Under the pieces are notes generated by a model. The model saw only the letters and a program-made list of their open reading frames with translations. It was not told the DNA's origin and ran no database searches. A stretch of 29,066 bases of DNA, from positions 1 to 29,066 of IMG/VR virus record IMGVR_UViG_3300023116_000238; one strand, given 5' to 3'. Positions 1 through 17,557 of this stretch are shown here, one piece after another. Source of the stretch: a virus. A program made the translations under genes and the position numbers. The stretch's first letter is position 1. Every line of letters begins with the position of its first letter.

Positions 1-3000
1 CTGAAAGTCAGTTCATCAACATCGTACCGGTGCGTCATCGTTGCGCCCATTTTTGTTACATGGAAATGTAGGGCACGGTCATGTGGCTCATATGCTGTCT
101 TGAGAGGGGCGTTGTCCGTATGTTGCTGCCAGCCATGAGTTGAACTGTTGGGGAATGCAAGTCGGTCATTGCTTACATCTACCCCGTCTTGAGAAAGGTG
201 TTCCCATCCATTGTTCTCCCAAGTTGGCCAAAGGCGAGGACTGTCGTAAGTGTTGGCGAAGGTGTCCTTAACAGCCCCTTCGCCTTGTGAGGGATGCATG
301 AGGCCGCCCGAGCCCATTGTTTCGGTTTGATAAGCCTGTATTCGGTCAAAGCCGGGCCGAACAATGATGTTGCCCGGAATCTCATTCGCAAGTGGTAAGC
401 GAATACGCATGTTTGGGGACACCCCACTACCAGCCAGTGATGGGGCCAACCCCTCAATGTCTCGGTCGCTTACATGTCGGAAATCGTAAATGATGGTTCC
501 AAGAGGGCTACCCCCTTCTAACCTATGCTCCTGTCCAGTATCATCAGTCACCAACGCACTTTGAAATTGCAATTCTTCATTCGGGATTTTGAGTGCACTT
601 TCTACCAACGGATAATTCATCTCCAGTTGAGGGTGCGCCAATTCTTGGGCCTGTATTAAGGGGAACATGGCGCTATTCGTAGATTCAAAGGAGAAGCGAT
701 TGTTACCGAGGATTTTCTCACCAACAGTCTTGTAGGCAGAACCGTCCTTGCGCACAACCCAAGGCGTCATTCCGAGACCGCGAGCGTTGCTGGCCGGCAA
801 AGTAAGGTTCCCACCGTCCATCCGTTTCCAAACAATGTGTTCTTCAAGGAAGTTGCGGGCAGCCTGTCGCCCGTCGTAGTATTTGTAGAGTCCTTCGGAG
901 GTGCCGTAATACTGACTTTTTGTCGTGACACCTTCACATTCAACCCCGTAGGTGGGATAGTCTTCGTGCAATTCCGACATGGGTACTACAGATTTGTCCC
1001 AAAACAAATCACCCGTAGGACTGTGGCAAGCATCACCGCGACCGATTTGAGAGGCGGCTGTAACCTGCGCATGCCAGTATGCTTCTACACCGACCGCTGG
1101 ATAAGACGCTGCTTTTTGTGGGAAGGCCGTTGTTGTATTGACCATGATTGCCTCTACATGAGGACCGGCAGTGGCGTGGGAAACATACCGGTCCTTGTTA
1201 TGCAATTTCTCAGCGTCCCAAGCAATCGTTCCGGCGTTCGCCAATGTACCGCTTCGCTTTACATCCAGCCAGTCGCCCATGGCGATGATACCGTCTCGGT
1301 CGGTTTTTGCAATAAGTGGAAGTTCACTTTCGTGAGTCACTGCAATCAAGTGCCGTGAAGCAAGGCCGTGAACACAACTCTCCGACCATAGTGCAGTGAC
1401 CGTATCTATAGAGCCATGTGGCGAAACTGTTCCCAAGCAAGACTCAGCACTACCGTAAGGCGAGAATCCCAAGAAGGGGTGCCATGCTCCGAGTCCAGCA
1501 CCAAAGGTTGCCGACGAGCCTATCTCCAATGAGTTGAGGAACGAATACCGTTCACCTGCCCACCCAACGGCTCCCACAGGCTTAGTCCGGTCAACGGCGT
1601 CAAGTAGCCCGTTAAAGTGAACCTGTGTACGCTCGTCAATTGATTCGTTGGAGTTGTTGTAACGATGTGTTCCGGCCTTTGTCCACACATAGAGTTTAAC
1701 ATCCGGCCCATTTACAGTGCTCGCCGCCACCGCCAACTTGGTCACAGGGTCAACCATGTTTGTGTTACTTGTGTAAGAGTTTTGCCCTAAAGTGAAAGTG
1801 CTACCGGCGTAACTAACATACGGCGCAAATGCTGACAGGCTTCCATCGCTTATGCGTAGCCACCCATACTGCGGTAAGGTCGTAGGAATAGTCGCACCGG
1901 TAGTAATGGTGGCTGCGGTTGGTCCTGCCGACTCCTCCGTATAAGTTCCTACATCCATGGTAACCCAGCCATAACGGTCTTGCTTTGCAGCATGTTGCAT
2001 AGAAGGTAAGAAAGTACCACCAATCGCTTTGAGCGGTTCTTTACCGGGGAAAGTGTTGATAGCAGTAGCCAATACGGCTGCTAACTCTTCTGCATTTTGA
2101 CAGCGCGTAGCATCAACAATGAATACATTATCAATGTGACCCATGTCATCCTCCGAGCCAAATGTGTTGAGATATGCTTTGGCTAAAGCAGAAGCGACAC
2201 GGAAAACTGATGGATTTTGAGATGCGCCCGAACCTGTCGCCAAACGGGTGTTTGATTGGGGGTGTTTGATATTGCGGATGATGTGATTATCCAAAAAGTG
2301 ACCGCCGGGGTGATAGCCGCCATCCATGTGCCATACGCATGCGCTGGCGAGTGTAGTAGGTATGGTGCCGTGCCCCATGTACACGCCGCTGACATTTGCA
2401 AATACTTCGTTTAATGGATGGGCATTTGGTGGAGGGCTTGATGCACCTAATTGATTATCGTAGTAACGACCCTCACCTGCGACTTGCCCGTAGTATGTAG
2501 CGTTCGGGAATCCTTTTGTCGGCTCCCAGTTTAACACAAAGTTGTACCCCTGTGCATTGTTACTTTGATATTCCTTTGTGGGAGGCAGCAACGCATCAAA
2601 TCCACTGATGCTTGCATCTCCGTGGGTAATGGTGTTAGGTAGGAGCGAGTTGCCGGCTACAGGGTGCGCCGTAGGTACAGAACTGTACCCGTTACCAGTT
2701 TGAATGATGTCCGACAACTGAGGTTCAAAGGTAGCGAAATTGTGGGGCACCGCCTGCCCCGGGCCAAAGATGAGATAAGTCGTAGAGTCTTCGGCTTGTG
2801 GCGTAGAATTATAGCGGGCATGGGGGTGACCAAACCGTATCACTATAGGGCTGGGACGAGCGCAATTTACGGTGAAACCACCATCAGTGTAAGTAACACC
2901 TGTGTGTGCCGCAGAAGTATTGTTACCGGCATCTAAGTCCGGGCTCAGCATAGCATCTTGGTTGAAAAACGGCATGTGATTGCGACCGTTGTGTTGGTTG

Positions 3001-6000
3001 AGATATGGGGTTCCGGGGAACATAGCCAGCATGGCGTTAGCGTCAAGTAGCGCATAAGCCCCTGCAATTTCGCCTACATTTTGTAATCCACTTGCACCGG
3101 TTGGGCCACCGGCATAGGGGTGAGTGTAGAACTCCGAATAGTCATTTTCTGTACCGTCATTGATGTCTACAGTTACGCCCGAAAAGCCGCCGCCAAAATA
3201 AAGAGGTACCCATCGGTCCGGACTGGCTTTAGCGCCTCGGAAGTAAAGAAGTGGCTCACCGTGCTTGCTTCCTTTCGTACGGACACCTTGGGTGTACCTA
3301 CTTTCACGAATGTTACCGTGAGCAAGCATGATGTCGTTTACGGCGACCGTGGTTAAGAAATCGGTGGAACTATCAACGATGTTCGCACGATAGGCTGAGT
3401 TGGACCCGGCAGCACTTTCTATGCGTGCCCAGTGACTATCACCCAGCCATGCTATAACAGGGTCACCCCAAGAGTCGCTATCATCCGAGGCAGGTGTGCA
3501 GGTCAAGAATAAAAACTCGTTGTTGCCGTTATCTGTCTCCAAATAGGGGCCAGCACCTGTGTTGAGATTGTTGATTTCAAACATTGGAGAATTGACCATA
3601 GGGACAATGCGGTCACCCGGTAAACGGTAAAAGGTTTCACCTCGCAGATTTTGTCGCCATTGTTCAGTGCGAACCATGTTGTTTTGACTATCTACAATAA
3701 TGGGCGTCGCTGTATTGGCGTTTGGTCCACGAAACTTCGTTGTAACAGTCAAAAGTGTCTTCGGTAAATAGCCGCAATCAATTCGGCGACCTTCCGAGAT
3801 TTGCAGAGCGGTCAATTCGTCGTCTGCAACAGCAGCCTGTATTCCCAAATCGGGTGTAATAGATGATTCAAAGAAATGCCTAAGTGGGACTACTCTGTGC
3901 TTTGGGTTGTGCGCCTTTACACGCACAGCGCCGGGCTTTACACCCCACTCGGCCAAAGTACGCCCATCCGGAGCGTAAAGTCCTGTACAATCAAAACTCG
4001 TTGCTCCTACATCGTCCGTGTTGGGGTCTTCCATACCGATAGCAAAGTTCACGGCCGACGCAATAACCTCGTCAGTGAGTACACTTGTAAAGTTCATTCG
4101 GGCACTCATGATGCGGGTGACTTTACCGCTTGTATATGCAGAAGGAATATTCTTGACGCCGTACAAAAAGTGTTCATTGGCCCCGCCAATACCAGCCTTG
4201 CCCTCATGTGAACGGGAAGTGTAATAGTAAACCTCACCATTGTTCCCTGTACCAGCCACATCACTCAATTGAATCAACCCGCTGTCCGGCAGGCCAAGGT
4301 ACCCAAGAATATCCGTGTGGGTAAACGAACCACTGTTATCGTATGGCGAAGCGAGTGTGAACTTCAAGTTGTCATTTGAGCCGTCCTTTTCAACTGAAAT
4401 GGATATGCCTACCGCCGCTGAGTTGTAAGTATTCCACAAATTACCCTTGAACGGCTGCTTGGTTCCACCAGTGTAGCGCCCATTGACATCACCTTCGCCA
4501 GCCATGTGCCTACCGACAGTAAAGCCACCTTGACCAACATCCCTGTCATCAAAATAAATGACGATTTCATCATCAAGTGTTTCCGGCAAGTGTGTCAAAT
4601 CGCCTGCAAACGACTGTCCGTATTGGCGATAAACTAAGCGGATAGTGTGTGGCTTGCTGCGATGGTCGGTAAAGCGAACCCCGTACATTTGCCCGTTTCC
4701 AATTTTATCCGGGCGGATTTCATCATCGGGGATGTACGACCCCGCCCCTTGATTGACGAGACCATGTTGATTAACGCCAATTTGTACATTATCTCCGTAG
4801 ATATGGTCAAAGCGAGTGTTGACACCATCGGGCCCATATCCCCATCGGCTGCAATCCGGTGCCCATCCGGGTATGCCCGCTTGAGTTATTCCTCCAAAAT
4901 TGATGCGGGCAGTTGCCTGTGAACCTACTCGCAGCCCACTGATAACCACTTGGCCATTTGATTTAGGCTCAAAGTTAGAATCAACTACAGAGTTCAAACT
5001 TCGCCCAGTAGCATGCTCAGTGGTAGATTCTGTGTTGAGTGGCGAACTGGATTGGATTTCCGGCCCGTAGTCCAAGTTGTTTTTGTAATCGTCGGAGACT
5101 TCGTCTACAGGTAAATACTCGCGCAAAGTCGTAATAGGGGCAAATGGTCGCCCAAACTTGTTGATGGGCATAGGTGCAGCATGCATGTTTTCGCCGCTCT
5201 TTTCATTTGGTTGACACCAGTAATTGCGGAAACGCCCACCGTGCCCAATCAAAAACTCGGGTCGGTAAGGAGCCTGTGCGTTTGATGCATCCAACCACAC
5301 GCAGAAGTTACGCCCCGATGCTCCGGGCACTGTAGAATGAATGACTACTGAATAGCCTTCTTCTCCTTTTTCGTCCATGACCACTCTACCCAAATGAGCC
5401 CGCAGGTACCCCATGTGTGTCCCGCGGTCGTGACTTCCAAACGCCGTCTCTTTATTCCAAAAAGGCGAAGGGTCATGGGTAGAACCAGTCACCGCAAAAT
5501 CAGCATGTTGGTGATGTGCAGTAGGGTCTTTGGTGTCCCCAGTGTGAACCGATGCTTCGCCCTTGCCCAAATCAAATCGTTCACCTTCTCCTAAATATTG
5601 GTCAGCAGGACGACGAGCATGTGTACGGCCGTTTTTAGCCCCGGCTTGGTTGATAAGTCGGACAACTTCTTTTGCCGCCGCCTCAATATCTGTGACCCCT
5701 TCTTTGACACCAACTTCACCCAAATCAATTGCAAGTCGGCGTACAAAGTCCATGTCGGTCCAATGCGGCAAGTGCTGCAAACGCTCCTCTTGATGCGCTG
5801 ATAAATCAAGTGGTGAAGAGCGAATCCCTTTCATGGATAAAAAAGCAGGTATAACCCGAGTTCCGTCCGGGGTATCAAAGAAAGTAGAGTGTTCATTTGT
5901 ACCAGCAAGCATCTGTCCATGCAATTCATTTGCAGCATCTGCATCGTGCACGGCTTCCTGTGTTCTCGGCATTATGGAACTGACTTGTGGCTTATGCTCG

Positions 6001-9000
6001 TGATAGCCAGTAGGGTGAGTGCTAACATCAACATTTGCATTCCATGTACTGCCGTGCGCCATGGCCGCTTCTGTAAAGTCGGATTGAGTAGTTGGTTGAA
6101 AACTTCGGTTTTGAGAAGGGAATCCAGCGGCGACATCAATGCCCGATGTTCTATCCGTTACATCCTGTACTCCCGTACCACGATTATTAACTCCAATTTG
6201 CACTGCGGCAGGGCTGGATTGAACTTGCATCCACAGGTCTTGGAAAGCGATGAACTCGCGGTCATGGGCCACATCATACAACAAAACTCGCGCATGCTCT
6301 TCTGTACTTTGATATGGGTCAAGGTAGGCCACTACAGGGATGTCGTCCGTCAACCCAAGTGATTCATAATTCAATTCAACCGTTTTGTTCACATGCTGCA
6401 CAAAGTTCCGTGCTGTTTCCAAACAGGAGTTGCCAATCAAAAAGTTCTCCAGTGGTAGGCTTTCACGAGAAGCAGCGTTGAGACTTCCTTCTCCACCAAG
6501 AAATCCTTCCCACACCTCGCCTTCATTCAGTGTTCCTCGGCTCTTGCAGAACAAGCCTTCCGTAGCGTGGGGATTTGTGTAGTGCATGTTCATCCATACC
6601 GTATCTCCGCTGCGCAAGCCTCCGGGGCAATATGGGTTTGCCCAAGCCGTATTGAGGAAGTAATTGGTGTTGATTTCGGGGTATGTAGCCGTCACTGCGT
6701 GTACATCAATGAGCGTGATTTCTGTCCCTGCCGTTGGAGCAAAGCCAGCATCAATTGAAACCAGCGCCAACGAGTTACCTGTGCGCACATTGTAGTGAGC
6801 GCGTTTAACGCCCGCTGCTGCAATATCGTAATATTCTATACGGTACGCATAATCAGTATCACCGGTAATGTCAAGAGGAAAGTCCGTACCGTCTTCCAGC
6901 ACCAAAGTAGGACTACTGAAAGAGGCGACAATTCCCTTTGCTCGCCTATTCTTGATACGGGGTAGGTGCGGATTTACGGTAGGTCCAGCCTTAAACTCAA
7001 TGGCGCTGACATATTGTTTGAGTCCGTAATCAATGTTACCTCCTTGAGTCATTACATTGGCCCTGTCGTAATAGAACGAATCACGACCTTCGTACCCAGC
7101 ACTTGAGACAAGAGGGTTATCACCAATGCTTTTGTAATTGAGGTTTTCTGTTTCAAGAGGCGGAATCAATTGTAACCCGACTTGGAACTCTCGCTTAAAA
7201 TCCGAAGAAAATGCCCAGTTGTCGTCGGCCGCAGCGTTCCCAGCAACCTCCAAATAACCATTGGAGCGGTTCACTGACTTGTACATGAACCAATGACCGT
7301 TTGAAGTGTAAGCAGTTCTAAACCTCAACGCACCGTTGATGTTCCCAACGGTTGTAGGAACACTATCGGGGTCGGGAAACACCTTGATGTCAGTAACATA
7401 GACGCGACGATTCGTATAATCGTATTCTGCGCTAATGGTTGTCCCTTGCCGGTGCGTTTTATCTACGATTGGAATTGAATAAGCACTGTGCATCGGAGGG
7501 TCTTCCGGAGAAACGCTACCCGGTCGGCGACCAACCGGGTTAGGCGACCAAGAAGGGGCCGTGTAAGTAGCGTCCAAATGCAATTTCATGCTGTTATTTG
7601 GTCCGGGGAAAACACCGTCCCTCTCATTGTCAAAGAAGAAGTCTTTGAACAGCGGAATCTCAACCATAGCACGGGTACTCGCGTACTGTGTCCCAAGTTG
7701 ATAATCATGCTGAACACTGTTCAAAGACTGGAACATGCGGTCATTGATGGTCGTCCCGTCTTGAACAACTGCGGCTTCGTCAAACTTATCGTCAACATGT
7801 AAGTTGTTACCTACTACAATCCCGACAGCAGTCTTCCAAGCCGCAAACGAATCCAACTCCCTACCGTCAAAGCCCACGAACTTACCTGTACCACGATGCC
7901 CTGTTCCCGAAGCAAAAGTAAATTGTGACCCCGTTTTGGACGAATATTCAGCCGACGCATAAGCACTCGCATTTTCATCAGTAGTAGCAGCGGCCTCTCG
8001 CAAATACACTCGCCCTGTCTCACCGAAACAATAAGTTCCCCATGAGGCCAAATCAGTGGCGGCGTTGTTGAGTGGTACAACGGAAATTGTAGTTGAGCCG
8101 AGAGCACTGACCTTTGTTACACAATCTCGTCGTAAAGACCATCCAAGGCGACTTAACGGGCTTGGGTCAAAGGTGGGCTTTGTGTTAATTGCGCCTTGCC
8201 CGGGGCCTCCCATTGTCATGGTGACGACAGGACTACCCGGCATAATTTCCTTGACAATGAATGAATCGGGAGCACCGTCACCTTTCACATTGACTGAATT
8301 GGACAACGCGTCTGCAACCAATCCATGTGCTCGTAATGTGGTACTACTACTGCCCATGGTGCTTTGAAAGTCAATGACCTTGCCACGAGAAACAACATAC
8401 TCCACAGTAACTTTGTTGGGCGTATCGGGGTCTTCCGCCAAAGTAACCAATTTTGATAATTGATTGAAGCGAGAGCGGTCAGTTGGCTGAATCACAAGTT
8501 GAATGTGATTACCTTGCCCTATGTGACCAACGATGTCAAACACTTCGTTAATCGGTGTCCCTTGATTACGGCTATAACGGGATTGAGGGATTGGGTGAAA
8601 GAACAACTCTTCACGGTGAACAACCGCTGCGGAACTACCGCTTGAAATAGCAATACTTGTCGCCGTAACCGCCGACACTTCGCCTAATCGTTGACCGTAA
8701 AGGCTGAAAAGAGGAACACCTACATCAAACACTGTTGTAGCATCTACACCGTTGACTGTGAATACCGTTGTTCCTGCGGCATATCCGGCCACATTATTCA
8801 CCAAAACACCTGTACGAGAACGGCGGTTGTAATTGAATCCTGCTTGATAATTTCCATTTGTGTCAATATTGGCGTCGCTATTTTCAACATCCGCAGTTGA
8901 AATTATCACTTTATGGAAATACGAAGGTCGTGAAGTGTCTTCGTAAAATGCACTCGGTATACCTGTAGGTGCACTTTGTGGACTATCGGAAGCGTGGGCT

Positions 9001-11396
9001 GGTAAGTAATTCTTTGGGGACTTGGAATGGTCCAGTGTATTTTCGTACAGCGTGCCTTCACTATCGTCGCCAAGCAAATCGCCATCTCCAAAGTAAAAGT
9101 CCGGCGTAGCGGAAAACTCAATTGTGCCCCCGGGAGCATATAGCACGGCTGTTCCCGCCGCAATGTCGCTGTGCATAACATCCAATACTCGTACCCCCGC
9201 AGCCAGTTCATGTGCAGCGACAGGTAGCGTTTTATTGACAACAAGTGCGCTGCCGCTCAACGAAGTGTGAACAATCGCCCCAATAACGGCCGCCGTTTGA
9301 AATCCAGCGGTCGGTGCAGAAGAAAAAGTAAGAGTGGCGGGCGAATGGCTGATGGTCACTGTAATGGATGATAGCCCTGCTACCTCGGAACCAATGAATA
9401 CTTTGTCAGCAGTGGTCGTCGTTGCATCAGCGCCAAATGCTTTCGTGCTTTGCAAAGTAAGGACATTGGCCGCATAATTTGACACGAGGCGGGCTGTAGC
9501 AGCACGCTCAATTCCTGTGCCCCCGAAGTCAATCGCATTGTAGTGGACTTGTACAAAGGGCGGATAATCGTAATCTGCGAGCGTAGGGAGTTTGAGAATA
9601 GCAACCCGAGGTTGAGCAGAAGGAGTAAGGTGACGCGTATGCTCTTGACCTGTAGGGGAAGCATCCTGTAAACTCTTGAGAGCAAAATGCTGGGCGTCAA
9701 ATCCGGCCCCACCAATCGCCAACAAATCACGCTGAGTATCATCCACCCCGGCCATACCGTTTTCAACCAATTGTGTTGGAACAGAAGTGAATATAGCACT
9801 GGAAATAGGGAAATCGCCGACCCGTTCATGAAATGCAACTTCCGAGCCGGCTACAACTACATCCTTGATTTGCCCATATCGCCCGGCGAAAGTAGCCTCC
9901 ATAATTTGTGCAACGGCATCTACAGATTGTTCTACAAAGGCACTGCTCGGCTGCGGCAACATACCCATGAAAGGATGCCCACTCACATGATTGAGTATAT
10001 GCCGACCAGTATGTCCAATGAGAAAATTGTCACCCATGCGAGTGGTTGCAGAAAACTTCGTGTAATCGTTGTCTGTAATCGCCATCGTAGTTGAAAACAT
10101 AATACCGTGATTGCCAAAGTCACTTTCGTCAACAAGTACCTGTCCTTGACGGTGGGAAAACTGCGTACCCGTACCCGCTTTTTGATAGGTGTTATCAGTA
10201 CCAGTGTCCACAATACAGTCACCCGTTACGACAACTCCGATGCCCGAACTGTGCGTCATGAGTGCCCCTCGGCGACCTGTACTGGCGTTTGATGCAAAGT
10301 CCAAATGGATGCTCTCAAGCGTAATAGTACCCGTGGAAGCGTCTATTTCCATAATGCGCATACGCTCGGGTGCTTCTCGGTTGGGTACACCAGTATCACG
10401 ACTATACCCTAATGGATTGATAAGGAGGTTGTAAGAGGTGTGAGGAATAGAAACAGTAGACTGGGTACCGCTGGCGTCTACTCTTTTCACGGCATAATTT
10501 CCGGTTGACTGGGGCGGCGTGGTTAAATCCAACAGGACTTCGCCTTCTTTGCCGGTAAATGTGTCAATCAGTGTTTGTGCTGCTACTACTCCAATGTTCA
10601 CTACAGAAGATGCACCGGTCTGTACGGGTACAGAAGGGAGTTCAAGGACATGGGGGATGGGTTCTACGGGCTCTTCAAACCGCCATAATCCAAGCGTACT
10701 ATCAGTCTTGATAGGCATTTCAAAGCGCGAGGCAGCGTCCGATGCACCCCTTGACCAATGCACCGCTTCAATCACACCTCGGTATTCACCACCAGTTCCG
10801 CCAATGTATAAAGCAGAAGGATGCAGAACAACCTCATGGTCTTCCTTAAGTTCTTTGTAAGCCAATACATCTCCATTGATGGATAGCGAAAGGAAGCGAC
10901 TGTTGAAAGTGGCTGTAACCAACATCAATTCACGGTGACCTAAGTTCAAAGCCGTGAGGTCGTTTTTACCTTTGTCCTGTGCGTTGAAAGTGTCGTGAAT
11001 GTCATCACCGGGCAGGGGAAAGGTCACACCATCCCAATAGGCGATTTGCCCGTCCGGGCCAGTGACACTTTTCGCTGTACTCAAAGTGTAAGTGTTGATT
11101 GCTCCGTTTGCAATGTTCCGCAATTGAACTTGGAAGTGAGCGGGGCCGGGACTGGAAGGGCTGCCGACGATGAGGCGGCAGATGTTTTCCTGTTCCCACA
11201 CGATGCCCCCGGAGTCGGGGATAACCCACGCTTCAATTGTAAAAGCAGATAACGAGCCAAGTGTAGATTGATTATTCAAATCGCTACCTTGATGTATTTC
11301 ACCGAAATTGCGGCGAAAGTTCATACGAGGAACAGAAACACCGTCGGTTACACCGTTGAAAAACAGCGCATGACTGGGCTTCATCAACAGTGACAT
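1..11396 (-). CDS. Giant tail-tip / receptor-binding protein, 3' end missing
   Basis: The frame starting at an ATG that overlaps the previous stop (TAATG) stays open to the left edge: 3,798 complete codons plus two bases with no stop, checked triplet by triplet. An AGGGGTGA ribosome site precedes it. Residues 1-240 resemble a LamG/concanavalin A-like jelly roll: FTIEAWVIPD (52-61), SLSINGDVLAYKE (about 170-182), LYIGGTGGEYRG (from 196) and LWRFEEP (237-243). The rest is beta-rich and Gly/Asn/Thr/Ser/Asp-rich. It includes a His cluster AHHQHADF near 1960, a compact Cys/Trp-containing stretch near 2020-2070 (GASGRNFCVWLDASNAQ), and an amphipathic stretch near 3090-3110 (NAEELAAVLATAIN). No transmembrane segment or catalytic motif was recognised. 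It lies directly after two distal-tail-like genes, where hub, fibre and host-recognition proteins are encoded. LamG is a common carbohydrate- or protein-binding fold. Adhesion is inferred from fold and position; the existence of the ORF is certain. Confidence 0.9.
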   Translation of the reverse strand, partial: MSLLMKPSHALFFNGVTDGVSVPRMNFRRNFGEIHQGSDLNNQSTLGSLSAFTIEAWVIPDSGGIVWEQENICRLIVGSPSSPGPAHFQVQLRNIANGAINTYTLSTAKSVTGPDGQIAYWDGVTFPLPGDDIHDTFNAQDKGKNDLTALNLGHRELMLVTATFNSRFLSLSINGDVLAYKELKEDHEVVLHPSALYIGGTGGEYRGVIEAVHWSRGASDAASRFEMPIKTDSTLGLWRFEEPVEPIPHVLELPSVPVQTGASSVVNIGVVAAQTLIDTFTGKEGEVLLDLTTPPQSTGNYAVKRVDASGTQSTVSIPHTSYNLLINPLGYSRDTGVPNREAPERMRIMEIDASTGTITLESIHLDFASNASTGRRGALMTHSSGIGVVVTGDCIVDTGTDNTYQKAGTGTQFSHRQGQVLVDESDFGNHGIMFSTTMAITDNDYTKFSATTRMGDNFLIGHTGRHILNHVSGHPFMGMLPQPSSAFVEQSVDAVAQIMEATFAGRYGQIKDVVVAGSEVAFHERVGDFPISSAIFTSVPTQLVENGMAGVDDTQRDLLAIGGAGFDAQHFALKSLQDASPTGQEHTRHLTPSAQPRVAILKLPTLADYDYPPFVQVHYNAIDFGGTGIERAATARLVSNYAANVLTLQSTKAFGADATTTTADKVFIGSEVAGLSSITVTISHSPATLTFSSAPTAGFQTAAVIGAIVHTSLSGSALVVNKTLPVAAHELAAGVRVLDVMHSDIAAGTAVLYAPGGTIEFSATPDFYFGDGDLLGDDSEGTLYENTLDHSKSPKNYLPAHASDSPQSAPTGIPSAFYEDTSRPSYFHKVIISTADVENSDANIDTNGNYQAGFNYNRRSRTGVLVNNVAGYAAGTTVFTVNGVDATTVFDVGVPLFSLYGQRLGEVSAVTATSIAISSGSSAAVVHREELFFHPIPQSRYSRNQGTPINEVFDIVGHIGQGNHIQLVIQPTDRSRFNQLSKLVTLAEDPDTPNKVTVEYVVSRGKVIDFQSTMGSSSTTLRAHGLVADALSNSVNVKGDGAPDSFIVKEIMPGSPVVTMTMGGPGQGAINTKPTFDPSPLSRLGWSLRRDCVTKVSALGSTTISVVPLNNAATDLASWGTYCFGETGRVYLREAAATTDENASAYASAEYSSKTGSQFTFASGTGHRGTGKFVGFDGRELDSFAAWKTAVGIVVGNNLHVDDKFDEAAVVQDGTTINDRMFQSLNSVQHDYQLGTQYASTRAMVEIPLFKDFFFDNERDGVFPGPNNSMKLHLDATYTAPSWSPNPVGRRPGSVSPEDPPMHSAYSIPIVDKTHRQGTTISAEYDYTNRRVYVTDIKVFPDPDSVPTTVGNINGALRFRTAYTSNGHWFMYKSVNRSNGYLEVAGNAAADDNWAFSSDFKREFQVGLQLIPPLETENLNYKSIGDNPLVSSAGYEGRDSFYYDRANVMTQGGNIDYGLKQYVSAIEFKAGPTVNPHLPRIKNRRAKGIVASFSSPTLVLEDGTDFPLDITGDTDYAYRIEYYDIAAAGVKRAHYNVRTGNSLALVSIDAGFAPTAGTEITLIDVHAVTATYPEINTNYFLNTAWANPYCPGGLRSGDTVWMNMHYTNPHATEGLFCKSRGTLNEGEVWEGFLGGEGSLNAASRESLPLENFLIGNSCLETARNFVQHVNKTVELNYESLGLTDDIPVVAYLDPYQSTEEHARVLLYDVAHDREFIAFQDLWMQVQSSPAAVQIGVNNRGTGVQDVTDRTSGIDVAAGFPSQNRSFQPTTQSDFTEAAMAHGSTWNANVDVSTHPTGYHEHKPQVSSIMPRTQEAVHDADAANELHGQMLAGTNEHSTFFDTPDGTRVIPAFLSMKGIRSSPLDLSAHQEERLQHLPHWTDMDFVRRLAIDLGEVGVKEGVTDIEAAAKEVVRLINQAGAKNGRTHARRPADQYLGEGERFDLGKGEASVHTGDTKDPTAHHQHADFAVTGSTHDPSPFWNKETAFGSHDRGTHMGYLRAHLGRVVMDEKGEEGYSVVIHSTVPGASGRNFCVWLDASNAQAPYRPEFLIGHGGRFRNYWCQPNEKSGENMHAAPMPINKFGRPFAPITTLREYLPVDEVSDDYKNNLDYGPEIQSSSPLNTESTTEHATGRSLNSVVDSNFEPKSNGQVVISGLRVGSQATARINFGGITQAGIPGWAPDCSRWGYGPDGVNTRFDHIYGDNVQIGVNQHGLVNQGAGSYIPDDEIRPDKIGNGQMYGVRFTDHRSKPHTIRLVYRQYGQSFAGDLTHLPETLDDEIVIYFDDRDVGQGGFTVGRHMAGEGDVNGRYTGGTKQPFKGNLWNTYNSAAVGISISVEKDGSNDNLKFTLASPYDNSGSFTHTDILGYLGLPDSGLIQLSDVAGTGNNGEVYYYTSRSHEGKAGIGGANEHFLYGVKNIPSAYTSGKVTRIMSARMNFTSVLTDEVIASAVNFAIGMEDPNTDDVGATSFDCTGLYAPDGRTLAEWGVKPGAVRVKAHNPKHRVVPLRHFFESSITPDLGIQAAVADDELTALQISEGRRIDCGYLPKTLLTVTTKFRGPNANTATPIIVDSQNNMVRTEQWRQNLRGETFYRLPGDRIVPMVNSPMFEINNLNTGAGPYLETDNGNNEFLFLTCTPASDDSDSWGDPVIAWLGDSHWARIESAAGSNSAYRANIVDSSTDFLTTVAVNDIMLAHGNIRESRYTQGVRTKGSKHGEPLLYFRGAKASPDRWVPLYFGGGFSGVTVDINDGTENDYSEFYTHPYAGGPTGASGLQNVGEIAGAYALLDANAMLAMFPGTPYLNQHNGRNHMPFFNQDAMLSPDLDAGNNTSAAHTGVTYTDGGFTVNCARPSPIVIRFGHPHARYNSTPQAEDSTTYLIFGPGQAVPHNFATFEPQLSDIIQTGNGYSSVPTAHPVAGNSLLPNTITHGDASISGFDALLPPTKEYQSNNAQGYNFVLNWEPTKGFPNATYYGQVAGEGRYYDNQLGASSPPPNAHPLNEVFANVSGVYMGHGTIPTTLASACVWHMDGGYHPGGHFLDNHIIRNIKHPQSNTRLATGSGASQNPSVFRVASALAKAYLNTFGSEDDMGHIDNVFIVDATRCQNAEELAAVLATAINTFPGKEPLKAIGGTFLPSMQHAAKQDRYGWVTMDVGTYTEESAGPTAATITTGATIPTTLPQYGWLRISDGSLSAFAPYVSYAGSTFTLGQNSYTSNTNMVDPVTKLAVAASTVNGPDVKLYVWTKAGTHRYNNSNESIDERTQVHFNGLLDAVDRTKPVGAVGWAGERYSFLNSLEIGSSATFGAGLGAWHPFLGFSPYGSAESCLGTVSPHGSIDTVTALWSESCVHGLASRHLIAVTHESELPLIAKTDRDGIIAMGDWLDVKRSGTLANAGTIAWDAEKLHNKDRYVSHATAGPHVEAIMVNTTTAFPQKAASYPAVGVEAYWHAQVTAASQIGRGDACHSPTGDLFWDKSVVPMSELHEDYPTYGVECEGVTTKSQYYGTSEGLYKYYDGRQAARNFLEEHIVWKRMDGGNLTLPASNARGLGMTPWVVRKDGSAYKTVGEKILGNNRFSFESTNSAMFPLIQAQELAHPQLEMNYPLVESALKIPNEELQFQSALVTDDTGQEHRLEGGSPLGTIIYDFRHVSDRDIEGLAPSLAGSGVSPNMRIRLPLANEIPGNIIVRPGFDRIQAYQTETMGSGGLMHPSQGEGAVKDTFANTYDSPRLWPTWENNGWEHLSQDGVDVSNDRLAFPNSSTHGWQQHTDNAPLKTAYEPHDRALHFHVTKMGATMTHRYDVDELTF

Positions 11397-12670
11397 TAGT
11401 TCACCCCTATTACATGGTCAGCACTTATCACTTGTAAATCAAACTGATAATAATTGTCGGCTCCCTCTTTGGTTAAATGTAGCGACTCGGGAATGACTGA
11501 TATGCCCCCGGTGTTGGTGGTGCCAGCGCCGCCCAACTTAGCCCAAGCATCACCGAGTACATCCGTGCCTCCAATGTCAAACGGAAAGACAAAATCGGCT
11601 ACACTTTCAAAAGTAGCGAAAACTGGACCGTCATCGGTCACAGGAGCAATTTCCATTGGACGAGTGCTCGGTCGCTGATTGCCGAGCGAGCCCTTATCAA
11701 GCGGTGTAACTTTGCCGGATGTCAAGAAAAAATTGCGAACGGTTGGGGAAATCTCGTTGGAGGTAATGAGGGAATTGTAGGGTATTTGGATGCCCCTCAG
11801 CAAGTCTTTGTCCTTGGTACTATTGGAAAGTAGTCCAAGGAGATTTTGCGCTTTGTCTCCTGCACTCATCCCTTTTGAACTACCTACTTGAGATGAATTG
11901 AGCACAATTCCATTAAGAGGCCATCTGTAAAATGTGGGTGAACTAATTCTAAACATTGGTGTGTGGCTGGTTGATGAATTGACAAACACATCCTGTATTT
12001 GGATTACAGAACCGTTCACCGTTACTGAAAATGCGTCTGCTACCCGCTTGCCTCCAAGGCCGTCACAACTGCCTATTTTTGTAATCTCAGTTGTCAACTG
12101 CAACGCGTCTTGAATAATGAGGGCCAGTGTGCTTGCCGGATTACCGTTATCCGGATTGAAAAGGACACCACCAATAGGGACATTGATTCGGACTTGGTTA
12201 CTGTTCTCGGCCAATGCATAGGCCGGGTCTACTGAGGGTGATGCAACGCCCCCTGCCCTGTTTGACACATTGCTATTGAAAACCAACACAAGTTGATTAC
12301 CACTACTTGTACAGATGGGAGAACGAAAGTTCCAATACACTGGCTTTAAATGAAGCCTTGCTGTTTGCAGAAGGCTCTCAACACTTGCATAAGCACTTGA
12401 AGCGGCCGGGACGGTGGTAGGGTAATACCGAATATCCCACAATATAGACGAAGGCTTTGTAGAAGGTGTACCGCCGATTGGGTCGTCTTGGATGATGCCG
12501 CGAATGCTCACTACAACTTGAGGTATGTTCGTGTCAATCGCCACTCGGTATGCGTCAAGAGGAACAGGGAAGGCTGCAACAGTGCGCTCTACGGCAATGG
12601 TAATATCAAGGGCATCCACATGCACGACATGTGGGGACGCCTCACCAAAAACCAACCTCAGCGGAATCAT
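11396..12670 (-). CDS. Distal-tail / hub-like protein, smaller paralogue
   Basis: A 424-residue protein, ATG start preceded by GTGAGG that overlaps the upstream stop; its own stop overlaps the start of the giant tail gene. Residues about 1-65 look like a tube/barrel beta domain (VHVDALDITIAVERTV, then QVVVSIRGIIQDD). The central part is beta-rich and contains a helix LALIIQDALQLTTEI. The C-terminal third is clearly related to the preceding gene's product: SAGDKAQNLLGLLSNS near 267, RGIQIPYNS followed by NFFLTSGK, and a final strand YYQFDLQVISADHVIG. I do not recognise an exact family. Position between a tape-measure-like gene and the large adhesin suggests a distal tail or baseplate hub ring component that anchors the giant protein. 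The duplication is seen in the sequence; the structural role is inferred. Confidence 0.75.
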   Translation of the reverse strand: MIPLRLVFGEASPHVVHVDALDITIAVERTVAAFPVPLDAYRVAIDTNIPQVVVSIRGIIQDDPIGGTPSTKPSSILWDIRYYPTTVPAASSAYASVESLLQTARLHLKPVYWNFRSPICTSSGNQLVLVFNSNVSNRAGGVASPSVDPAYALAENSNQVRINVPIGGVLFNPDNGNPASTLALIIQDALQLTTEITKIGSCDGLGGKRVADAFSVTVNGSVIQIQDVFVNSSTSHTPMFRISSPTFYRWPLNGIVLNSSQVGSSKGMSAGDKAQNLLGLLSNSTKDKDLLRGIQIPYNSLITSNEISPTVRNFFLTSGKVTPLDKGSLGNQRPSTRPMEIAPVTDDGPVFATFESVADFVFPFDIGGTDVLGDAWAKLGGAGTTNTGGISVIPESLHLTKEGADNYYQFDLQVISADHVIGVN

Positions 12671-12679
12671 GATTTTGCC

Positions 12680-14335
12680 TCACAGAATAAAGTCGGATGC
12701 AATCATTTGCAAACGGAAGTTGTAAACATTGGACTGCGCTTGGTGCTCAAGTTGCAAATCGGTGATAATGGCCTTGATACCTTTCGTCCTTGCCCCATTG
12801 TGTGTGGGGCTAAATGCATCACTGGCAGGGTAAGTGTTGGCTGTCGCCAATTTGTAACTGGTTGACAGGTTTTTACCGTGGGTAATGAAAAAGTTGCGTT
12901 GCTCAAATGCTTCGGAAACAGATGTGACAGAGGAGTCATAGGGGATTTGAACACCGAGAATGTAATCGCCTTTGTTGCTTTCACTATACCCTCGTAAACC
13001 TTCAATGAACTCCTTTACAAGTGGTGAACTTAAATCACTATTGGGCTGAAAGTTTTGACTGTTAGCAACAATTCCCAAAAGGTCTTGCGCTTTATCGCCC
13101 GCAGACTTGACTTTTTTTCCGGCTCGCCCACCAATAAAACCAGTAGACTCAAACGAAACTGCAAGAGGTATAGTATCTCTCATTACCCCCTCCAAGGCAC
13201 CGAAAGCGACATCTGTTTTTTGTTTAATTGTGATGAAAGTTTGACCGCCACCTGTACCTGTTGACACAACTGTTTCGTACACATCGCCCACATCCCGACC
13301 ACCCAGCGCATCTACATCACGGGAACACATCCCTCCGACCGTTGCAGGTGACATGCTTGTAAGTGCATTGCTGACAATGTGTGTCAACACTTCCGCAGGA
13401 CCGGTACCCCCTCCAATATCGCGGGCTGCGCCATTTTTGAAGGCGGGAGCAGTTTGGTCAAAAATGTGCTTGACAGGTATAGCCACTACAGGTAAGTTGT
13501 CGCTGAAAACAGAGTAGTAGGTTAGATGAGGGGCTTTGAGTATTTTGACAGCGTGTCCAGCAATTGGGGTCGTGATGGAATCATTCCATAGCGTAATGCT
13601 ACTGGAGGTTACACTTTTAACGGCCCCAAAGAGGTTTGCAGCAGACCCGTTCCCGGTAATAGAAAATGAAGTAGCCTGTGCAAGAGTCGTTTCAAACCAT
13701 TCCCTCGGGTCGCCTCCTGTCACGCTAATGGTGCGAGTTGAACTGCTGTAACTGGCAACACGGAGATTCGTCGTCCGGAAGCGATTGATGTACGCATACG
13801 GCTCTTGAACTGACCCGCTGCGCCTGCTATCAAAGACAAAGCGGATGTGGCGACTCCCTACAGGTTCATCTGTTTTGTACCAATACCCAACAGGCATGTC
13901 AAAATATTTGCCGTGTAGGGCATTGAGGTACGCAACATGGTCATTATCGGGAGTATTAGGTGGAAAAGTAGGCAAGGTGTGTCCAACTCCTCCGAAATTA
14001 AAGAAGCCCGAAAAGCCTTGACCGCCACTTGACGACGGGGGGAATAGGTTGGATTGCCCATTGCCCGGAGGGTCGGCGAAAGGAAGTTCGTTACCGAAGT
14101 CCATAGTAGCCGTAGCGAACTCGGACTTTTCTTGACCTTTATCGTCCGCAAAGGTCCCCTCCATCTCTACAACTACCTCAGCCATGTTCGGCTCAATCCC
14201 GAACTTAGCACCGTCGGTGAACTGAGTAGTAATGGCGGACGAGCGACGGTCTACTGTAAACTCAACCTTGTGAGCGTACAAATCAATGGTGTCGCCGTCT
14301 TCTCGCACAAGTCGGACCGGTAGTTGGTTGGCCAT
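12680..14335 (-). CDS. Distal-tail / hub-like protein, larger paralogue
   Basis: A 551-residue protein with ATG start; GAGGT lies nine bases upstream, beside the previous gene's stop. The N-terminus (LVREDGDTIDLYAHKVEFTV, then AEVVVEMEGTFADD) has the strand pattern seen in tail-tube-fold and Dit-type ring proteins. A Gly/Pro/Phe-rich loop follows near residues 90-130 (SSSGGQGFSGFFNFGG). The C-terminal third carries SAGDKAQDLLGIVANSQ near 411, LGVQIPYDSSVTS, NFFITHGK and a last strand VYNFRLQMIASDFIL. All are shared with the next gene's product, which is 127 residues shorter. The extra length lies before the shared core. Likely a ring or hub protein at the tail end, possibly forming alternating or stacked rings with its paralogue. 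The family name is uncertain. Confidence 0.75.
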   Translation of the reverse strand: MANQLPVRLVREDGDTIDLYAHKVEFTVDRRSSAITTQFTDGAKFGIEPNMAEVVVEMEGTFADDKGQEKSEFATATMDFGNELPFADPPGNGQSNLFPPSSSGGQGFSGFFNFGGVGHTLPTFPPNTPDNDHVAYLNALHGKYFDMPVGYWYKTDEPVGSRHIRFVFDSRRSGSVQEPYAYINRFRTTNLRVASYSSSTRTISVTGGDPREWFETTLAQATSFSITGNGSAANLFGAVKSVTSSSITLWNDSITTPIAGHAVKILKAPHLTYYSVFSDNLPVVAIPVKHIFDQTAPAFKNGAARDIGGGTGPAEVLTHIVSNALTSMSPATVGGMCSRDVDALGGRDVGDVYETVVSTGTGGGQTFITIKQKTDVAFGALEGVMRDTIPLAVSFESTGFIGGRAGKKVKSAGDKAQDLLGIVANSQNFQPNSDLSSPLVKEFIEGLRGYSESNKGDYILGVQIPYDSSVTSVSEAFEQRNFFITHGKNLSTSYKLATANTYPASDAFSPTHNGARTKGIKAIITDLQLEHQAQSNVYNFRLQMIASDFIL

Positions 14336-14336
14336 T

Positions 14337-14798
14337 TCAAATACCTCTACTCACTCCACTGTTTTGCAACGAGCCGCCCATTTTTGAACGAAGTTGCTTG
14401 GACACCATAGCCCCAAGTTCTTCTGCTAACTTCTTCTTATCGCTACGGTCGGTGATACCGGAAACATCAATTTTGATGGCCCCAATGTTGACATTTTGGT
14501 TTTGTTCTACTGGGCCGGCTGATTGGGTTTGCACGGCAGTATCGGCTTGCTGAGGAGGTCGGAAGGCTGTTTGCTGCGCCTCTTCCAATACGCTTTGAAC
14601 ATTCCGCATAGGCTCAATGCTCTGCATTTGCCGAAGAGCCTCACGCAAATCACGAGTCCGAGTGTGCGAGACATTCATAATACGGTTGAAGCCGCTGAGT
14701 TCGTCTCGTAGCCGAGACATGTTCTTGGTAGAGTCTTCGCTAAACTCCGCAAAACGCCGCATGGAATCAACCGTGCGCGGGTCAAGGTTCTCATCCAT
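14337..14798 (-). CDS. Miniature tape-measure-like protein
   Basis: A 153-residue protein, ATG start with GGAGTGA about eight bases upstream, overlapping the preceding stop. Residues about 1-75 are charged and heptad-like (FAEFSEDSTKNMSRLRDEL, LREALRQMQSIEPM), predicted helical coiled coil. A Pro/Gln-rich linker follows (RPPQQADTAVQTQ). Residues about 105-140 read IGAIKIDVSGITDRSDKKKL then AEELGAMVSKQL, a strand-then-helix pattern that I associate with the C-terminal end of long tape measure proteins. It sits right after the chaperone-like pair and before the distal tail genes, exactly the tape measure slot. Ordinary tape measures are many hundreds of residues. It could be a true short tape measure, a C-terminal fragment of one, or a tail-tip cap. 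Confidence 0.55.
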   Translation of the reverse strand: MDENLDPRTVDSMRRFAEFSEDSTKNMSRLRDELSGFNRIMNVSHTRTRDLREALRQMQSIEPMRNVQSVLEEAQQTAFRPPQQADTAVQTQSAGPVEQNQNVNIGAIKIDVSGITDRSDKKKLAEELGAMVSKQLRSKMGGSLQNSGVSRGI

Positions 14799-14804
14799 GA
14801 TTCA

Positions 14805-15071
14805 TCACTCCAACGGGGGCACATAATCGTAGCCCAAGTAAACAGCATCATCTCGCTGTGCCTCTTGCTTTTTCCTCATCACCACTGCCCAAGCGAGCAG
14901 TTGCCGTGCGTCCTGTGGTCCCAGTTCCCTCACTTCTTTCAGCCCCATGTTGTAATGTGTCATCAGCAAGTATTCGTTCCCTTCTCTCTGTAAGCGAAGC
15001 CAGTCGTCTGCTCGTTTACCAGCGATGTAATTTACAATGTCGCTGACTTCGCCTCCCGAAAACTGAGCCAT
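14805..15071 (-). CDS. Putative tail assembly chaperone, downstream partner
   Basis: An 88-residue, mostly helical protein (VSDIVNYIAGKRADDWLRLQ, LLAWAVVMRKKQEAQRDDA) ending YVPPLE. It starts at an ATG inside the 3' end of the preceding gene, overlapping it by 40 bases, and lies in the -1 frame relative to it. Two small overlapping genes between tail tube and tape measure, related by -1, are the usual arrangement of the lambda G/GT-type chaperones, which coat the tape measure during tail assembly. The -1 frame is also open for at least 30 codons upstream of the ATG, so a frameshift fusion is possible. However, I found no X-XXY-YYZ slippery heptamer in the overlap. Independent, coupled translation is the simpler reading. 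Function rests on position and size only. Confidence 0.6.
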   Translation of the reverse strand: MAQFSGGEVSDIVNYIAGKRADDWLRLQREGNEYLLMTHYNMGLKEVRELGPQDARQLLAWAVVMRKKQEAQRDDAVYLGYDYVPPLE

Positions 15072-15328
15072 TCCACAACTTGGTCGGGATGAGGCACCAG
15101 TTCCCTCAACGCCATACCTTCGGTGATGGTCAAATCCTTCAAAGAAATGTTGTCGGGGACATCAAGCCACATCTCAAATGCAGCCAGCCAGTATTGAACG
15201 AGATTGAACTCGGGTGCAGAAAACAATGTTGCAAGTGACTGAACTTCAAAGAAAGTCGGCTCACGAACACCGACCTCTACAGCCTTTTCATCAATGTTAA
15301 TTTTCGTTTTCTTGGTTTTCCTCGTCAT
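15032..15328 (-). CDS. Putative tail assembly chaperone, upstream partner
   Basis: About 98 residues from ATG at 15328; a GTG two codons earlier (15334) is an alternative. A basic N-terminus (TRKTKKTKINIDEKAVEV) resembles the start of many tail chaperones, which often begin with a lysine-rich strand derived from a substrate-mimicking segment. A compact helical body follows (FFEVQSLATLFSAPEFNLVQ, WLAAFEMWLDVPDNISLKDL, DQVVEWLSFREAKSATL). It overlaps the acidic small gene upstream by about 30 bases and the next chaperone candidate by 40. Its place between the tail tube and the tape-measure-like gene supports the call. I recognise no sequence motif that proves it. Confidence 0.6.
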   Translation of the reverse strand: MTRKTKKTKINIDEKAVEVGVREPTFFEVQSLATLFSAPEFNLVQYWLAAFEMWLDVPDNISLKDLTITEGMALRELVPHPDQVVEWLSFREAKSATL

Positions 15329-15524
15329 ACTCACTCACTTCGTCGTTTGAGGCAGCCTCTTGCGAGGGGGCCTCTTGAGAGTCTACCGCCTGCTCTTGCG
15401 AGGGGGCGATGTGCTCTCCAAATGGGTTGTCCGAAGCACGACCTGCTTCGGGATTGAATGCACCTTCTACTTCCACTTCATCCTCGGACCGAGGGTGCAA
15501 ACGGGAAGGGTGCTTCATGGGCAT
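15297..15524 (-). CDS. Small acidic low-complexity protein
   Basis: About 75 residues from ATG at 15524; TTG codons at 15539 and 15536 are in frame but overlap the previous stop and have no better ribosome site. The product is strongly acidic and Ser/Gln/Glu-rich, with two copies of APSQE and a tail EYDEENQENEN; it is predicted disordered. The copies correspond to an identical 15-base direct repeat in the DNA. No domain is recognisable. It lies between the tail tube gene and the chaperone-like pair. It might be an extra N-terminal chaperone partner, a DNA-mimic-like acidic tail, or a small accessory protein. The overlap with its neighbours on both sides argues that it is translated within the operon. 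Confidence 0.5.
   Translation of the reverse strand: MPMKHPSRLHPRSEDEVEVEGAFNPEAGRASDNPFGEHIAPSQEQAVDSQEAPSQEAASNDEVSEYDEENQENEN
15357..15407 (-). repeat. 15-bp direct repeat pair encoding APSQE
   Basis: The + strand sequence CTCTTGCGAGGGGGC occurs at 15357-15371 and again, identical, at 15393-15407. It lies inside the small acidic gene and encodes its two APSQE motifs. It looks like a local duplication within a disordered coding segment, not a regulatory site. Confidence 0.8.
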
Positions 15525-15532
15525 GGCATCAC

Positions 15533-17557
15533 TCAACAATGGAAAAGGGTGTCGGTACTGATAACCTTGATGTTCTTTGGATGAATCATGACCTTTGAAT
15601 GCAGAAGACCTTTGTCATCCGGTACAGGAATGGGGGCCTGTGTCATCACATAGTCATCAATGAGAATGCGCATCAGTTGTGCAGAATTGTCGGAACTGGT
15701 GCTCGGCTTAGTGAAGACCATTTCAATGATGGATGTGTCCGAATCAACCGTCCCACTCACTTCGCGATGGCTACGCAACTCATGCCACAATAGTGGGTCA
15801 CGGATAATAATGTCCATCTCCAACTCAAACTCTTCTCTTCCTTCCCGAATCACCGAAGCGTTACGAGTTCCTCCATACGGAACTTGCTTGGTTGAACGCT
15901 TCGCACTGTCAACGGTTTCGGGCACGGGTGTACCGCCGATGGTGTGAAAAGTTTCTACACCCGTCTTCCCTCGCAACTCAAATGTAGAGATGTAACCAAT
16001 GTCTTGGTCAAACGCAGTAATAGTGCCGTTGTAAAACATGAACGGTTTTTCCGAGCCCAGTGCGATGCCTGCTTCTTTGCGACCTTTTGCGTCCGAAGCG
16101 GTATTTTGAAACAAGCGATGGGCCGTGTAACGGTCACCGGGACTGGAGGCATCCAGTCGCCCAGTGTCCGTGTAACACGAAAGGGCGTTGAAAATGCAAC
16201 GGTATTTGACTTCTGCGTCAGTCGTCGCCGTGAGTTCCCATTCCACTACTTTACAGCCTCGGAAAATACGAGTCAATTGCTTAGAATCCGTCGCCGAGCC
16301 GGGAGCGTTGCTACTTTCATTCGCTCCATTGTAAGACCCTACATCTCGGTTGCGAATGCTGTGTTCAATACAAAAAGAGGGCACAGTTTCTGCTGAAAAC
16401 AATAAACGGTGAACTGGGTTATCAATGCGCCCATTTGCATCTACATGCGGACTACCCGTTGAAGCGTCCGACGCGAATCGGAAAGCCTGTATTCCATCGT
16501 TAGGCTGATGTTCATAATACAGGGGGTCATCAAGGAACAGACGATAGTCGCTACCGACAGGCTCAATGGCTACTACACGACGAACCTCACTGGAACGGGC
16601 TTGGTCAAAATGATGACTGTCGCTGCTCAGTGTAGACGCAGCGTCGGACGAAGGCCAGTATTGAGTAGACGAACCTTCTACGGCCTTGTAGTACACAGTC
16701 GGAACAAGCGTGGTATCGGGGAACAACACATAATCGCCAACTGCAAGTGTGTGGCCGTTGAAGTCAAGGTCGTCAACATCTGCGTAAGTTTGTCCTGCCA
16801 CAACCGCTGTTCTCAAAATACCCGCCTTATTATAGCCCTGTGCACCAATCATCGTTTCAGCATCCACCACTTCACGGCCAAGGCTGTAGTAAAGCCATCG
16901 TGGATTGTGCAACGGCATTTCCAATTGGCCACCTTGATGATGAACTTTACCTGTTTGTTGAATGGCTGCTTGGCGACCAAGTCCAATGACATGATGGCGC
17001 AACAATTCCACAGTAGTATCGGGAAGAACCATGTGTGACGCCAGTCCGATGAACTGGTCAATCGTTGAAACCTCTTGAGAAGCAGAGGCATCGTTGTCAT
17101 GAACAAAGTCGGACGCACTCAATGTCGGCATACCGAGGGAATGAATGAACAAAGCGTCCCCCGCAGTACTGATACGGGTGGCGGTGTCGTGCTCAAGTGC
17201 TGGGACAATTTTGAGGTAAGTTGCATCACTTTCCACCGTGTGGTCAACAATTCGGTAATTGCGACTGTTGAACCCGTCGTTGTAAAAATCCGAAAAGTTG
17301 TTCGGTGAGCCGTCTTTGTGAAAAGTAAGAGTTTGCCCAATAAGCATACCGAGCGGCACTTTGAGAATAGGGTTGGTTTCAAAAATCGTATTGGCTCCAC
17401 CAGTGCCTTCAAAAAACAAGGTCGTATAATCGGGGTTGTCAGCAGACCACATGGTTCGCCAAGTGCAGGGCTCACCGTGTTGAATGTAGATACCTGTCTC
17501 ATGACCCATGAGGACTTCGGAGACATCTCCTTTGTACGCTTGGCTCGCTCCCGACAT
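15533..17557 (-). CDS. Probable major tail tube protein, enlarged
   Basis: A 674-residue protein with ATG start; AGGAGTG lies upstream, overlapping the preceding stop. The segment HHQGGQLEMPLHNPRWLYY (near residue 210) followed by LGREVVDAETM resembles the strand-loop region of siphovirus-type tail tube proteins. The C-terminus (EEFELEMDIIIRDPLLWHEL, then IIEMVFTKPS, LMRILIDDYVMTQAPIPVPD and a terminal strand) has the alternating strands typical of a tube barrel closing on itself. Usual tube proteins are about 150-350 residues. The extra length lies in beta-rich insertions in the middle (roughly 230-500), which may form exposed decoration domains. Context supports the call: tail-terminator-like gene before, chaperone-like pair after. 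Some other tail sheath-like or multi-domain tail protein is possible, but no contractile-tail partner genes are visible. Confidence 0.65.
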   Translation of the reverse strand: MSGASQAYKGDVSEVLMGHETGIYIQHGEPCTWRTMWSADNPDYTTLFFEGTGGANTIFETNPILKVPLGMLIGQTLTFHKDGSPNNFSDFYNDGFNSRNYRIVDHTVESDATYLKIVPALEHDTATRISTAGDALFIHSLGMPTLSASDFVHDNDASASQEVSTIDQFIGLASHMVLPDTTVELLRHHVIGLGRQAAIQQTGKVHHQGGQLEMPLHNPRWLYYSLGREVVDAETMIGAQGYNKAGILRTAVVAGQTYADVDDLDFNGHTLAVGDYVLFPDTTLVPTVYYKAVEGSSTQYWPSSDAASTLSSDSHHFDQARSSEVRRVVAIEPVGSDYRLFLDDPLYYEHQPNDGIQAFRFASDASTGSPHVDANGRIDNPVHRLLFSAETVPSFCIEHSIRNRDVGSYNGANESSNAPGSATDSKQLTRIFRGCKVVEWELTATTDAEVKYRCIFNALSCYTDTGRLDASSPGDRYTAHRLFQNTASDAKGRKEAGIALGSEKPFMFYNGTITAFDQDIGYISTFELRGKTGVETFHTIGGTPVPETVDSAKRSTKQVPYGGTRNASVIREGREEFELEMDIIIRDPLLWHELRSHREVSGTVDSDTSIIEMVFTKPSTSSDNSAQLMRILIDDYVMTQAPIPVPDDKGLLHSKVMIHPKNIKVISTDTLFHC

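Follow-up and report, generated by a model that had tools for sequence, protein, structure and literature searches.

Hub or Tal proteins of the lambda J type, as found at the tail tip of phages, as a rule measure about 1,000 to 1,500 aa. In the haloviruses HCTV-1 and HVTV-1 (Druskaviridae), the place after the tube, chaperones and tape measure is occupied by four to six ordinary genes (127 to 130 in HCTV-1, 133 to 138 in HVTV-1), the largest of which encodes 1,045 aa in HCTV-1. The baseplate hub gp44 of HFTV1 is a trimer with a C-terminal carbohydrate-binding domain (PMC12494034), and features of the magroviruses of Poseidoniales have also been published (PMC10768690, PMC12999244, PMC5332604).

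Here we describe a virus locus at which, different from the haloviruses, the place of these tail-tip genes is taken by one giant chain. The window, that is, the whole stretch of DNA analyzed, comprises an entire virus record of 29,066 bases, and its contig ends inside the giant gene.

The virus and its tail module

The window and seven relatives share one gene order: capsid protein, small head genes, adaptor, completion protein, tube, chaperone frames, tape measure, one or two Dit-like proteins and, as the last large tail gene, the giant. Up to the tape measure, the gene order of HCTV-1 matches that of the window.

25012..26397, minus strand: prohead maturation protease, S78 type (PF04586, E=1e-10)
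23851..24996, minus strand: HK97-fold major capsid protein, halovirus type (phrog_24667, E=1e-58; PF17236)
18011..19879, minus strand: putative head-tail adaptor-type protein, 622 aa (phrog_17057, function unknown, E=7e-24; position)
17561..18001, minus strand: putative tail completion-type protein, 146 aa (weak PF11367 match, E=0.18; position)
15533..17557, minus strand: tail tube protein, 674 aa (PF18906 Phage_tube_2, E=1e-5)
14805..15334, minus strand: two overlapping frames (88 and 100 aa), putatively in the tail assembly chaperone place, since they lie between tube and tape measure as do HCTV-1 genes 122/123
14337..14798, minus strand: miniature tape measure protein, 153 aa, a C-terminal remnant (C-terminal motif and gene position as in 403-567-aa homologues)
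12680..14335, minus strand: Dit-like/ring-type protein, copy 1, 551 aa (position; paralogue of the 424-aa gene)
11396..12670, minus strand: Dit-like/ring-type protein, copy 2, 424 aa (paralogue of the 551-aa gene, hhalign probability 100; putative distal-tail role from position)
3..11396, minus strand: proposed giant tail-tip protein, N-terminal 3,798 residues (relatives 5,098-6,106 aa; 3′ end outside the window)

The capsid protein has its best matches in HCTV-1, HCTV-5 and HVTV-1 (34 to 35% identity over 99%), and it and the head module are related to those of tailed haloviruses (Druskaviridae), a defining trait of Magrovirales. Another such trait is a genome of 90 to 110 kb with a family B DNA polymerase; the polymerase (PF00136) is present in 7/7 relatives of 90 to 118 kb, the window being a fragment without that region. 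In the nearest relative, L002, a Cpn60/TCP-1 chaperonin (PF00118, E=6e-56) and an HMG-CoA-lyase-like gene (PF00682, E=2e-20) adjoin the tail module, and both have been reported in magroviruses (PMC5332604, PMC10768690). On sequence grounds, the virus is a relative of the magroviruses, viruses of marine Poseidoniales archaea, with the host assigned by kinship. The PCNA sliding clamp (PF00705) was detected in none of the seven relatives, while archaeal controls gave a signal; we therefore do not claim membership in the Aoguangviridae (magrovirus clade B), the type virus of which carries PCNA.

Among GTDB genome contigs, pieces of the giant occurred only on two small contigs in bacterial MAGs, giving no host link. 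These two, from a Cytophagaceae (PAUP01000059) and a Maricaulis (NZMJ01000142) MAG, are probably mis-binned viral contigs. A 6-kb contig (IMGVR_UViG_3300020054_000191) encodes a capsid protein 100% identical to that of the window and, judging from this identity, is the same virus species in another record. Next to the prohead protease gene of the window lies an open frame of 879 aa (26425-29064, minus strand); it contains a KMDG motif and weakly matches an ATP-dependent DNA ligase domain (PF01068, E=5e-4). Genes for a ligase and a prohead protease also occur together in a published contig of a group A magrovirus (PMC7318539).

The 153-aa gene combines homology to bona fide tape measures with a place between the chaperones and the distal tail proteins. 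Versions of 135 to 171 aa occur in 35 loci; three others (L025, L057, L059) encode classical tape measures of about 400 to 570 aa with the same ending motif, and the two long homologues tested gave PHROG tape-measure matches (2e-23 and 6e-7). By motif and homology, the 153-aa protein is a shortened tape measure, the long form of which is kept in a sister clade. In a full comparison of eight viruses, two Dit-like paralogues were seen in each of the four that have a mini tape measure, and a single copy in each of the four that have a long one; Dit-like duplication thus correlates with tape-measure loss. In the short-tape-measure lineage, these pairs measure 424 and 551 aa in the window and 671 and 824 aa in G005. 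For the 424-aa copy there was no PDB match and for neither Dit-like protein of the window a PHROG match, while their position fits Dit. Given that HFTV1 uses 341 residues for a 56-nm tail, 153 residues suggest a tail of roughly 20 to 25 nm, and by this analogy the mini tape measure would point to a very short tail in the window lineage.

Between the head and neck genes, the window encodes a charged helical protein of 813 aa (19893-22334, minus strand). In relatives with a capsid protein identity of 84 to 90%, this protein reaches only ∼37 to 44% identity, and elsewhere unrelated genes of 147 to 369 aa take its place. We considered this protein as the missing tape measure and rejected it because G005, with the same mini tape measure, has only a 147-aa gene there.

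The giant open frame and its relatives

According to the ORF listing, the giant frame starts with an ATG, extends over 3,798 codons and is open at its 3′ end; its translation contains no stop, for which the chance at the base composition of the window is ∼10^-81. Its ATG shares one base with the stop codon of the preceding gene, as would be the case for translational coupling in a tail operon. Between the frame and L002, differences at the three codon positions (0.17/0.09/0.54) are dominated by third positions, with a dN/dS of ∼0.04 to 0.08 in those 400-codon windows where it was computable. In closer pairs, dN/dS was 0 to 0.12 along the whole gene, the maximum over 400-codon windows of three pairs being about 0.12 in every computable window. 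Judged from these comparisons, the frame is coding and under purifying selection throughout. Since the window is the complete record, the stop codon of the giant cannot be read here.

Relatives of the giant number at least 159 in IMG/VR with one query and at least 291 with another. All 41 loci that include both ends encode one uninterrupted frame of 5,098 to 6,106 aa (median, 5,253). Because these loci had been selected with the giant itself, we repeated the test on contigs picked by the capsid protein alone. A capsid-protein search yielded 496 relatives, and the unbiased set consisted of 21 contigs of at least 50 kb chosen only by this protein. The giant was present in 21/21: as a single frame of 5,173 to 6,140 codons in 15, cut by the contig end in 4 and with one frameshift each in 2, with no conserved split among them. 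Frameshifts were also seen in L083, otherwise 99 to 100% identical to the intact L006, and twice in L141. Since they fall at differing places among copies, they are what assembly errors or decay would produce, not a real gene boundary. Compared with that of L053, the giant of L141 (7027-23354) has an identity of 73 to 76% as far as residue ∼1384 and of 96% from there on, likely reflecting a recombination breakpoint inside the gene.

The original prediction, made from the window alone, of a single stop-free frame of at least 3,798 codons with its C-terminus beyond the window is confirmed and was even an understatement: the frame runs off the contig, and the relatives, at 5,098 to 6,106 aa, are indeed far longer than ordinary hub or fiber proteins. 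Homologues split into separate genes had been named as a refutation, and this test left the giant single-framed; homologues of equal length and with an unchanged gene order, to be sought in marine viral metagenomes, were found. As for the genome share, the giant takes ∼16.5 kb of ∼105 kb in L002, or about 16%, a milder cost than claimed.

Lectin domain, conserved core and plug-in domains

Three features were placed within the part of the giant that lies in the window.

10662..11396, minus strand: laminin-G/concanavalin A-like lectin fold domain, residues 1-245 (PF13385, E=6e-4, below the Pfam cut-off; AlphaFold2 model)
6777..6962, minus strand: small repeated module, about residues 1479-1540 (also residues ∼4253-4311 of relatives; hhalign probability 52%)
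1750..1830, minus strand: insertion site, about residues 3190-3215 (77-88-aa plug-ins in seven relatives; empty in the window)

Segment-wise structure prediction with fold searches, as originally proposed for placing domains, covered residues 1-2115 and succeeded in part. The AlphaFold2 model of residues 1-1001 (mean pLDDT, 70.6; pTM, 0.68) retrieved laminin-G, pentraxin and PAPP-A structures at probability 1.0, and residues 1-245 are thereby predicted to be a laminin-G-type jelly roll, whereas the model of residues 1000-2115 was poor (pLDDT, 53.7; pTM, 0.40). Botulinum-toxin structures that also appeared in the fold search were set aside as sharing only the common jelly-roll fold. Within residues 1000-2115 (window 5051-8399, minus strand), the most conserved blocks were modeled least confidently (r=-0.35; mean conservation, 0.73 versus 0.56), a pattern compatible with an interwoven oligomer and equally with a shallow alignment. 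In a published count of auxiliary metabolic genes, four groups of magroviruses were listed with Laminin_G_3 domains (PMC10160649); these domains may well be structural modules of the giant protein.

Beyond the laminin-G domain, searches of the giant against Pfam, PHROG and PDB profiles (the latter with five segments, A1-A5) returned nothing meaningful. The conserved core spans ∼5,200 alignment columns with a mean pairwise column identity of 0.53 among 26 representatives. No core homologue is known outside the group: tblastn of the window part gave no match in GenBank phages, and hhalign of the core against HCTV-1, HVTV-1 and vir519 tail proteins gave nothing convincing (best, 16%). The sole internal repeat detected was the module of ∼57 aa listed above, a weak hit, and the core appears essentially non-repetitive.

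Length differences between giants come as discrete insertions at many sites, and in the conservation profile the variable cassettes are sharply bounded. These optional domains of 70 to 320 residues include beta-propeller-like, laminin-G and cyanophage-type modules. The largest is a 322-residue cassette (residues 4463-4784 of L002) with a repeated ‘DGTKMW...REYTLSTPYD’ pattern; it has no family match and, judged by eye from its repeat-like sequence, resembles a beta-propeller. The second is a laminin-G domain at ∼5307 of 217 to 233 residues (about 220 to 250; PF13385, E=2e-5). Both sites lie, in the numbering of relatives, beyond the window edge, and variation is strongest there.

Several comparisons bear on the movement of these domains. 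L006 and L058 carry the 322-aa cassette, whereas L042, with a core that is 97% identical, lacks it. The cassette of L141 is 89% identical to that of L006, while over residues 1385-4529 L141 is 96% identical to the cassette-less L053. The laminin-G insert, in turn, is 38% alike between L053 and L067, the cores of which are 77% alike, and 81% alike between L034 and L053, the cores of which are only 67% alike. In these sequence comparisons, the plug-ins are gained, lost and swapped independently of the core. In addition, phages of Roseobacter and Lentibacter encode proteins that weakly match the 322-aa cassette (E ∼1e-3), and an insert of ∼70 residues matches 290 mostly cyanophage records, several of them annotated as structural protein.

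Proposed role and comparison with known systems

Its position after the tube, chaperones, tape measure and Dit-like protein(s) makes the assignment of the giant to the tail tip well supported, and gene position and synteny in the window plus seven relatives bear out the location first proposed. As the best explanation of the whole, to which we give a probability of about 0.65, we propose that the giant is the host-contacting tail-tip (adhesion-device) protein of magroviruses and that the window frame encodes the N-terminal ∼70% of it. The core would form an oligomer, most likely trimeric by analogy with HFTV1 and phage hubs, that sits under the Dit-like ring(s) and closes the tail. The lectin and propeller-like modules would bind host-surface glycans or proteins, and binding, relayed through the core, would cause the tip to open and let out the tape measure and DNA. 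Exchange of modules could then re-target the virus while leaving its scaffold as it is. For the oligomer, binding and signal relay, the HFTV1 hub provides a structural precedent (PMC12494034).

We further suggest, tentatively and with considerable doubt, that one major magrovirus lineage is nearly tailless: a tape measure of ∼150 residues and a duplicated ring protein would be paired with an outsized single-chain tip of >5,000 residues that does the reaching, binding and envelope crossing, with host range set via domain swaps, some of them with bacterial marine phages. If true, the tip takes on work usually split among a long tail and several baseplate and fiber proteins.

The original picture of a composite adhesin survives only in part: the protein is composite with lectin-type modules, but an adhesin role for the whole chain is not supported, as a conserved framework (dN/dS 0 to 0.12) makes up the greater part. 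The suggested hub module was not recovered; Pfam, PHROG, PDB profiles and HCTV-1/HVTV-1 gave no sequence match of the giant to a hub, Dit or receptor-binding family. Reliance on one adhesin is likewise not supported, as three more tail-type genes follow the giant in L002 (about 470, 117 and 379 residues, without family matches); the 379-aa protein (28232-29371) is fiber-like by inspection, has no database match and is a possible fiber gene.

These downstream genes also bear on the idea that the giant is mainly a mechanical baseplate or tip scaffold, used to seal the tail and to get across the S-layer, the main receptor-binding protein being a small downstream gene such as the 379-aa one. The highly conserved core with its low dN/dS, unlike a fast-evolving adhesin, and the absence of the large cassettes from many relatives would fit this, yet an N-terminal lectin-type domain is found in all, and swapped lectin and propeller-like plug-ins are the usual signature of host-range modules; we consider this idea unlikely. 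A structural polyprotein, cut at assembly into several tail proteins (hub, fibers and others), would account for extreme length without repeats and for the four to six separate genes of halovirus relatives at the same place, and the virus does encode a protease. That protease, however, is of the S78 type, normally the head protease, no protease domain was found in the giant and no relative has a conserved split, making the polyprotein quite improbable. That in the short-tape-measure lineage the giant itself serves as the tape measure, or stands in for it, might be thought from the mere 153 aa left there, but the giant is just as long beside tape measures of 403 to 567 aa and its confidently modeled parts are beta-rich, not helical, so that we give this very little credence. 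An assembly artefact fusing several genes can be dismissed, with a practically negligible chance, for although the record is a fragment from a metagenome, dozens of independent contigs, drawn from many metagenomes, show this same single frame.

The host-contacting tail-tip protein that we favor, taking ∼16% of the L002 genome, present in every long relative tested and built as a fixed framework with lectin-type plug-ins, is an obvious candidate for host recognition. Its modules are concrete, separately expressible units for testing, and viruses that combine one tail plan with either a short or a long tape measure offer a natural comparison.

The giant family is already in public databases, as indicated by the unnamed giant A0A1B1IU10 of UniProt (in BFVD as pieces), which is more divergent and was compared from these pieces only. 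It is the closest relative among predicted viral structures: in both structure and sequence it matches residues 1-1001 (E=2e-57, 26% identity) and, in two pieces, residues 1000-2115 (E=2e-35 and 2e-29, 36 to 40% identity). We found no published description of this family, though an earlier mention in the magrovirus literature is possible. The giant core shows no detectable sequence relation to the tail-tip proteins of HCTV-1 and HVTV-1, including HCTV-1 gp127; HCTV-5 and HVTV-1 have a separate laminin-G protein at the tail-tip place, whereas in the giant laminin-G is built in. With HFTV1 gp44, to which profiles A1-A5 against PDB revealed no homology, it shares its place at the tip of an archaeal tailed virus and the prediction of a module for carbohydrate binding. 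In HFTV1, however, the binding domain is C-terminal and the fibers are separate proteins, while the conserved lectin domain of the giant is N-terminal. Phage hub/Tal proteins resemble it in their tip position and in a conserved scaffold with added domains, although hub domains (lambda J, gp27-like) were not recognized in the giant by Pfam, PHROG, PDB profiles or comparison with HCTV-1 gp127. Plug-in modules are held in common with marine bacteriophages (cyanophages; Roseobacter and Lentibacter phages), where they belong to other proteins, structural or hypothetical, and the giant core is absent. A tail-tip protein with recognition modules is known, while its size, a single-chain conserved core and embedded exchangeable domains are new.
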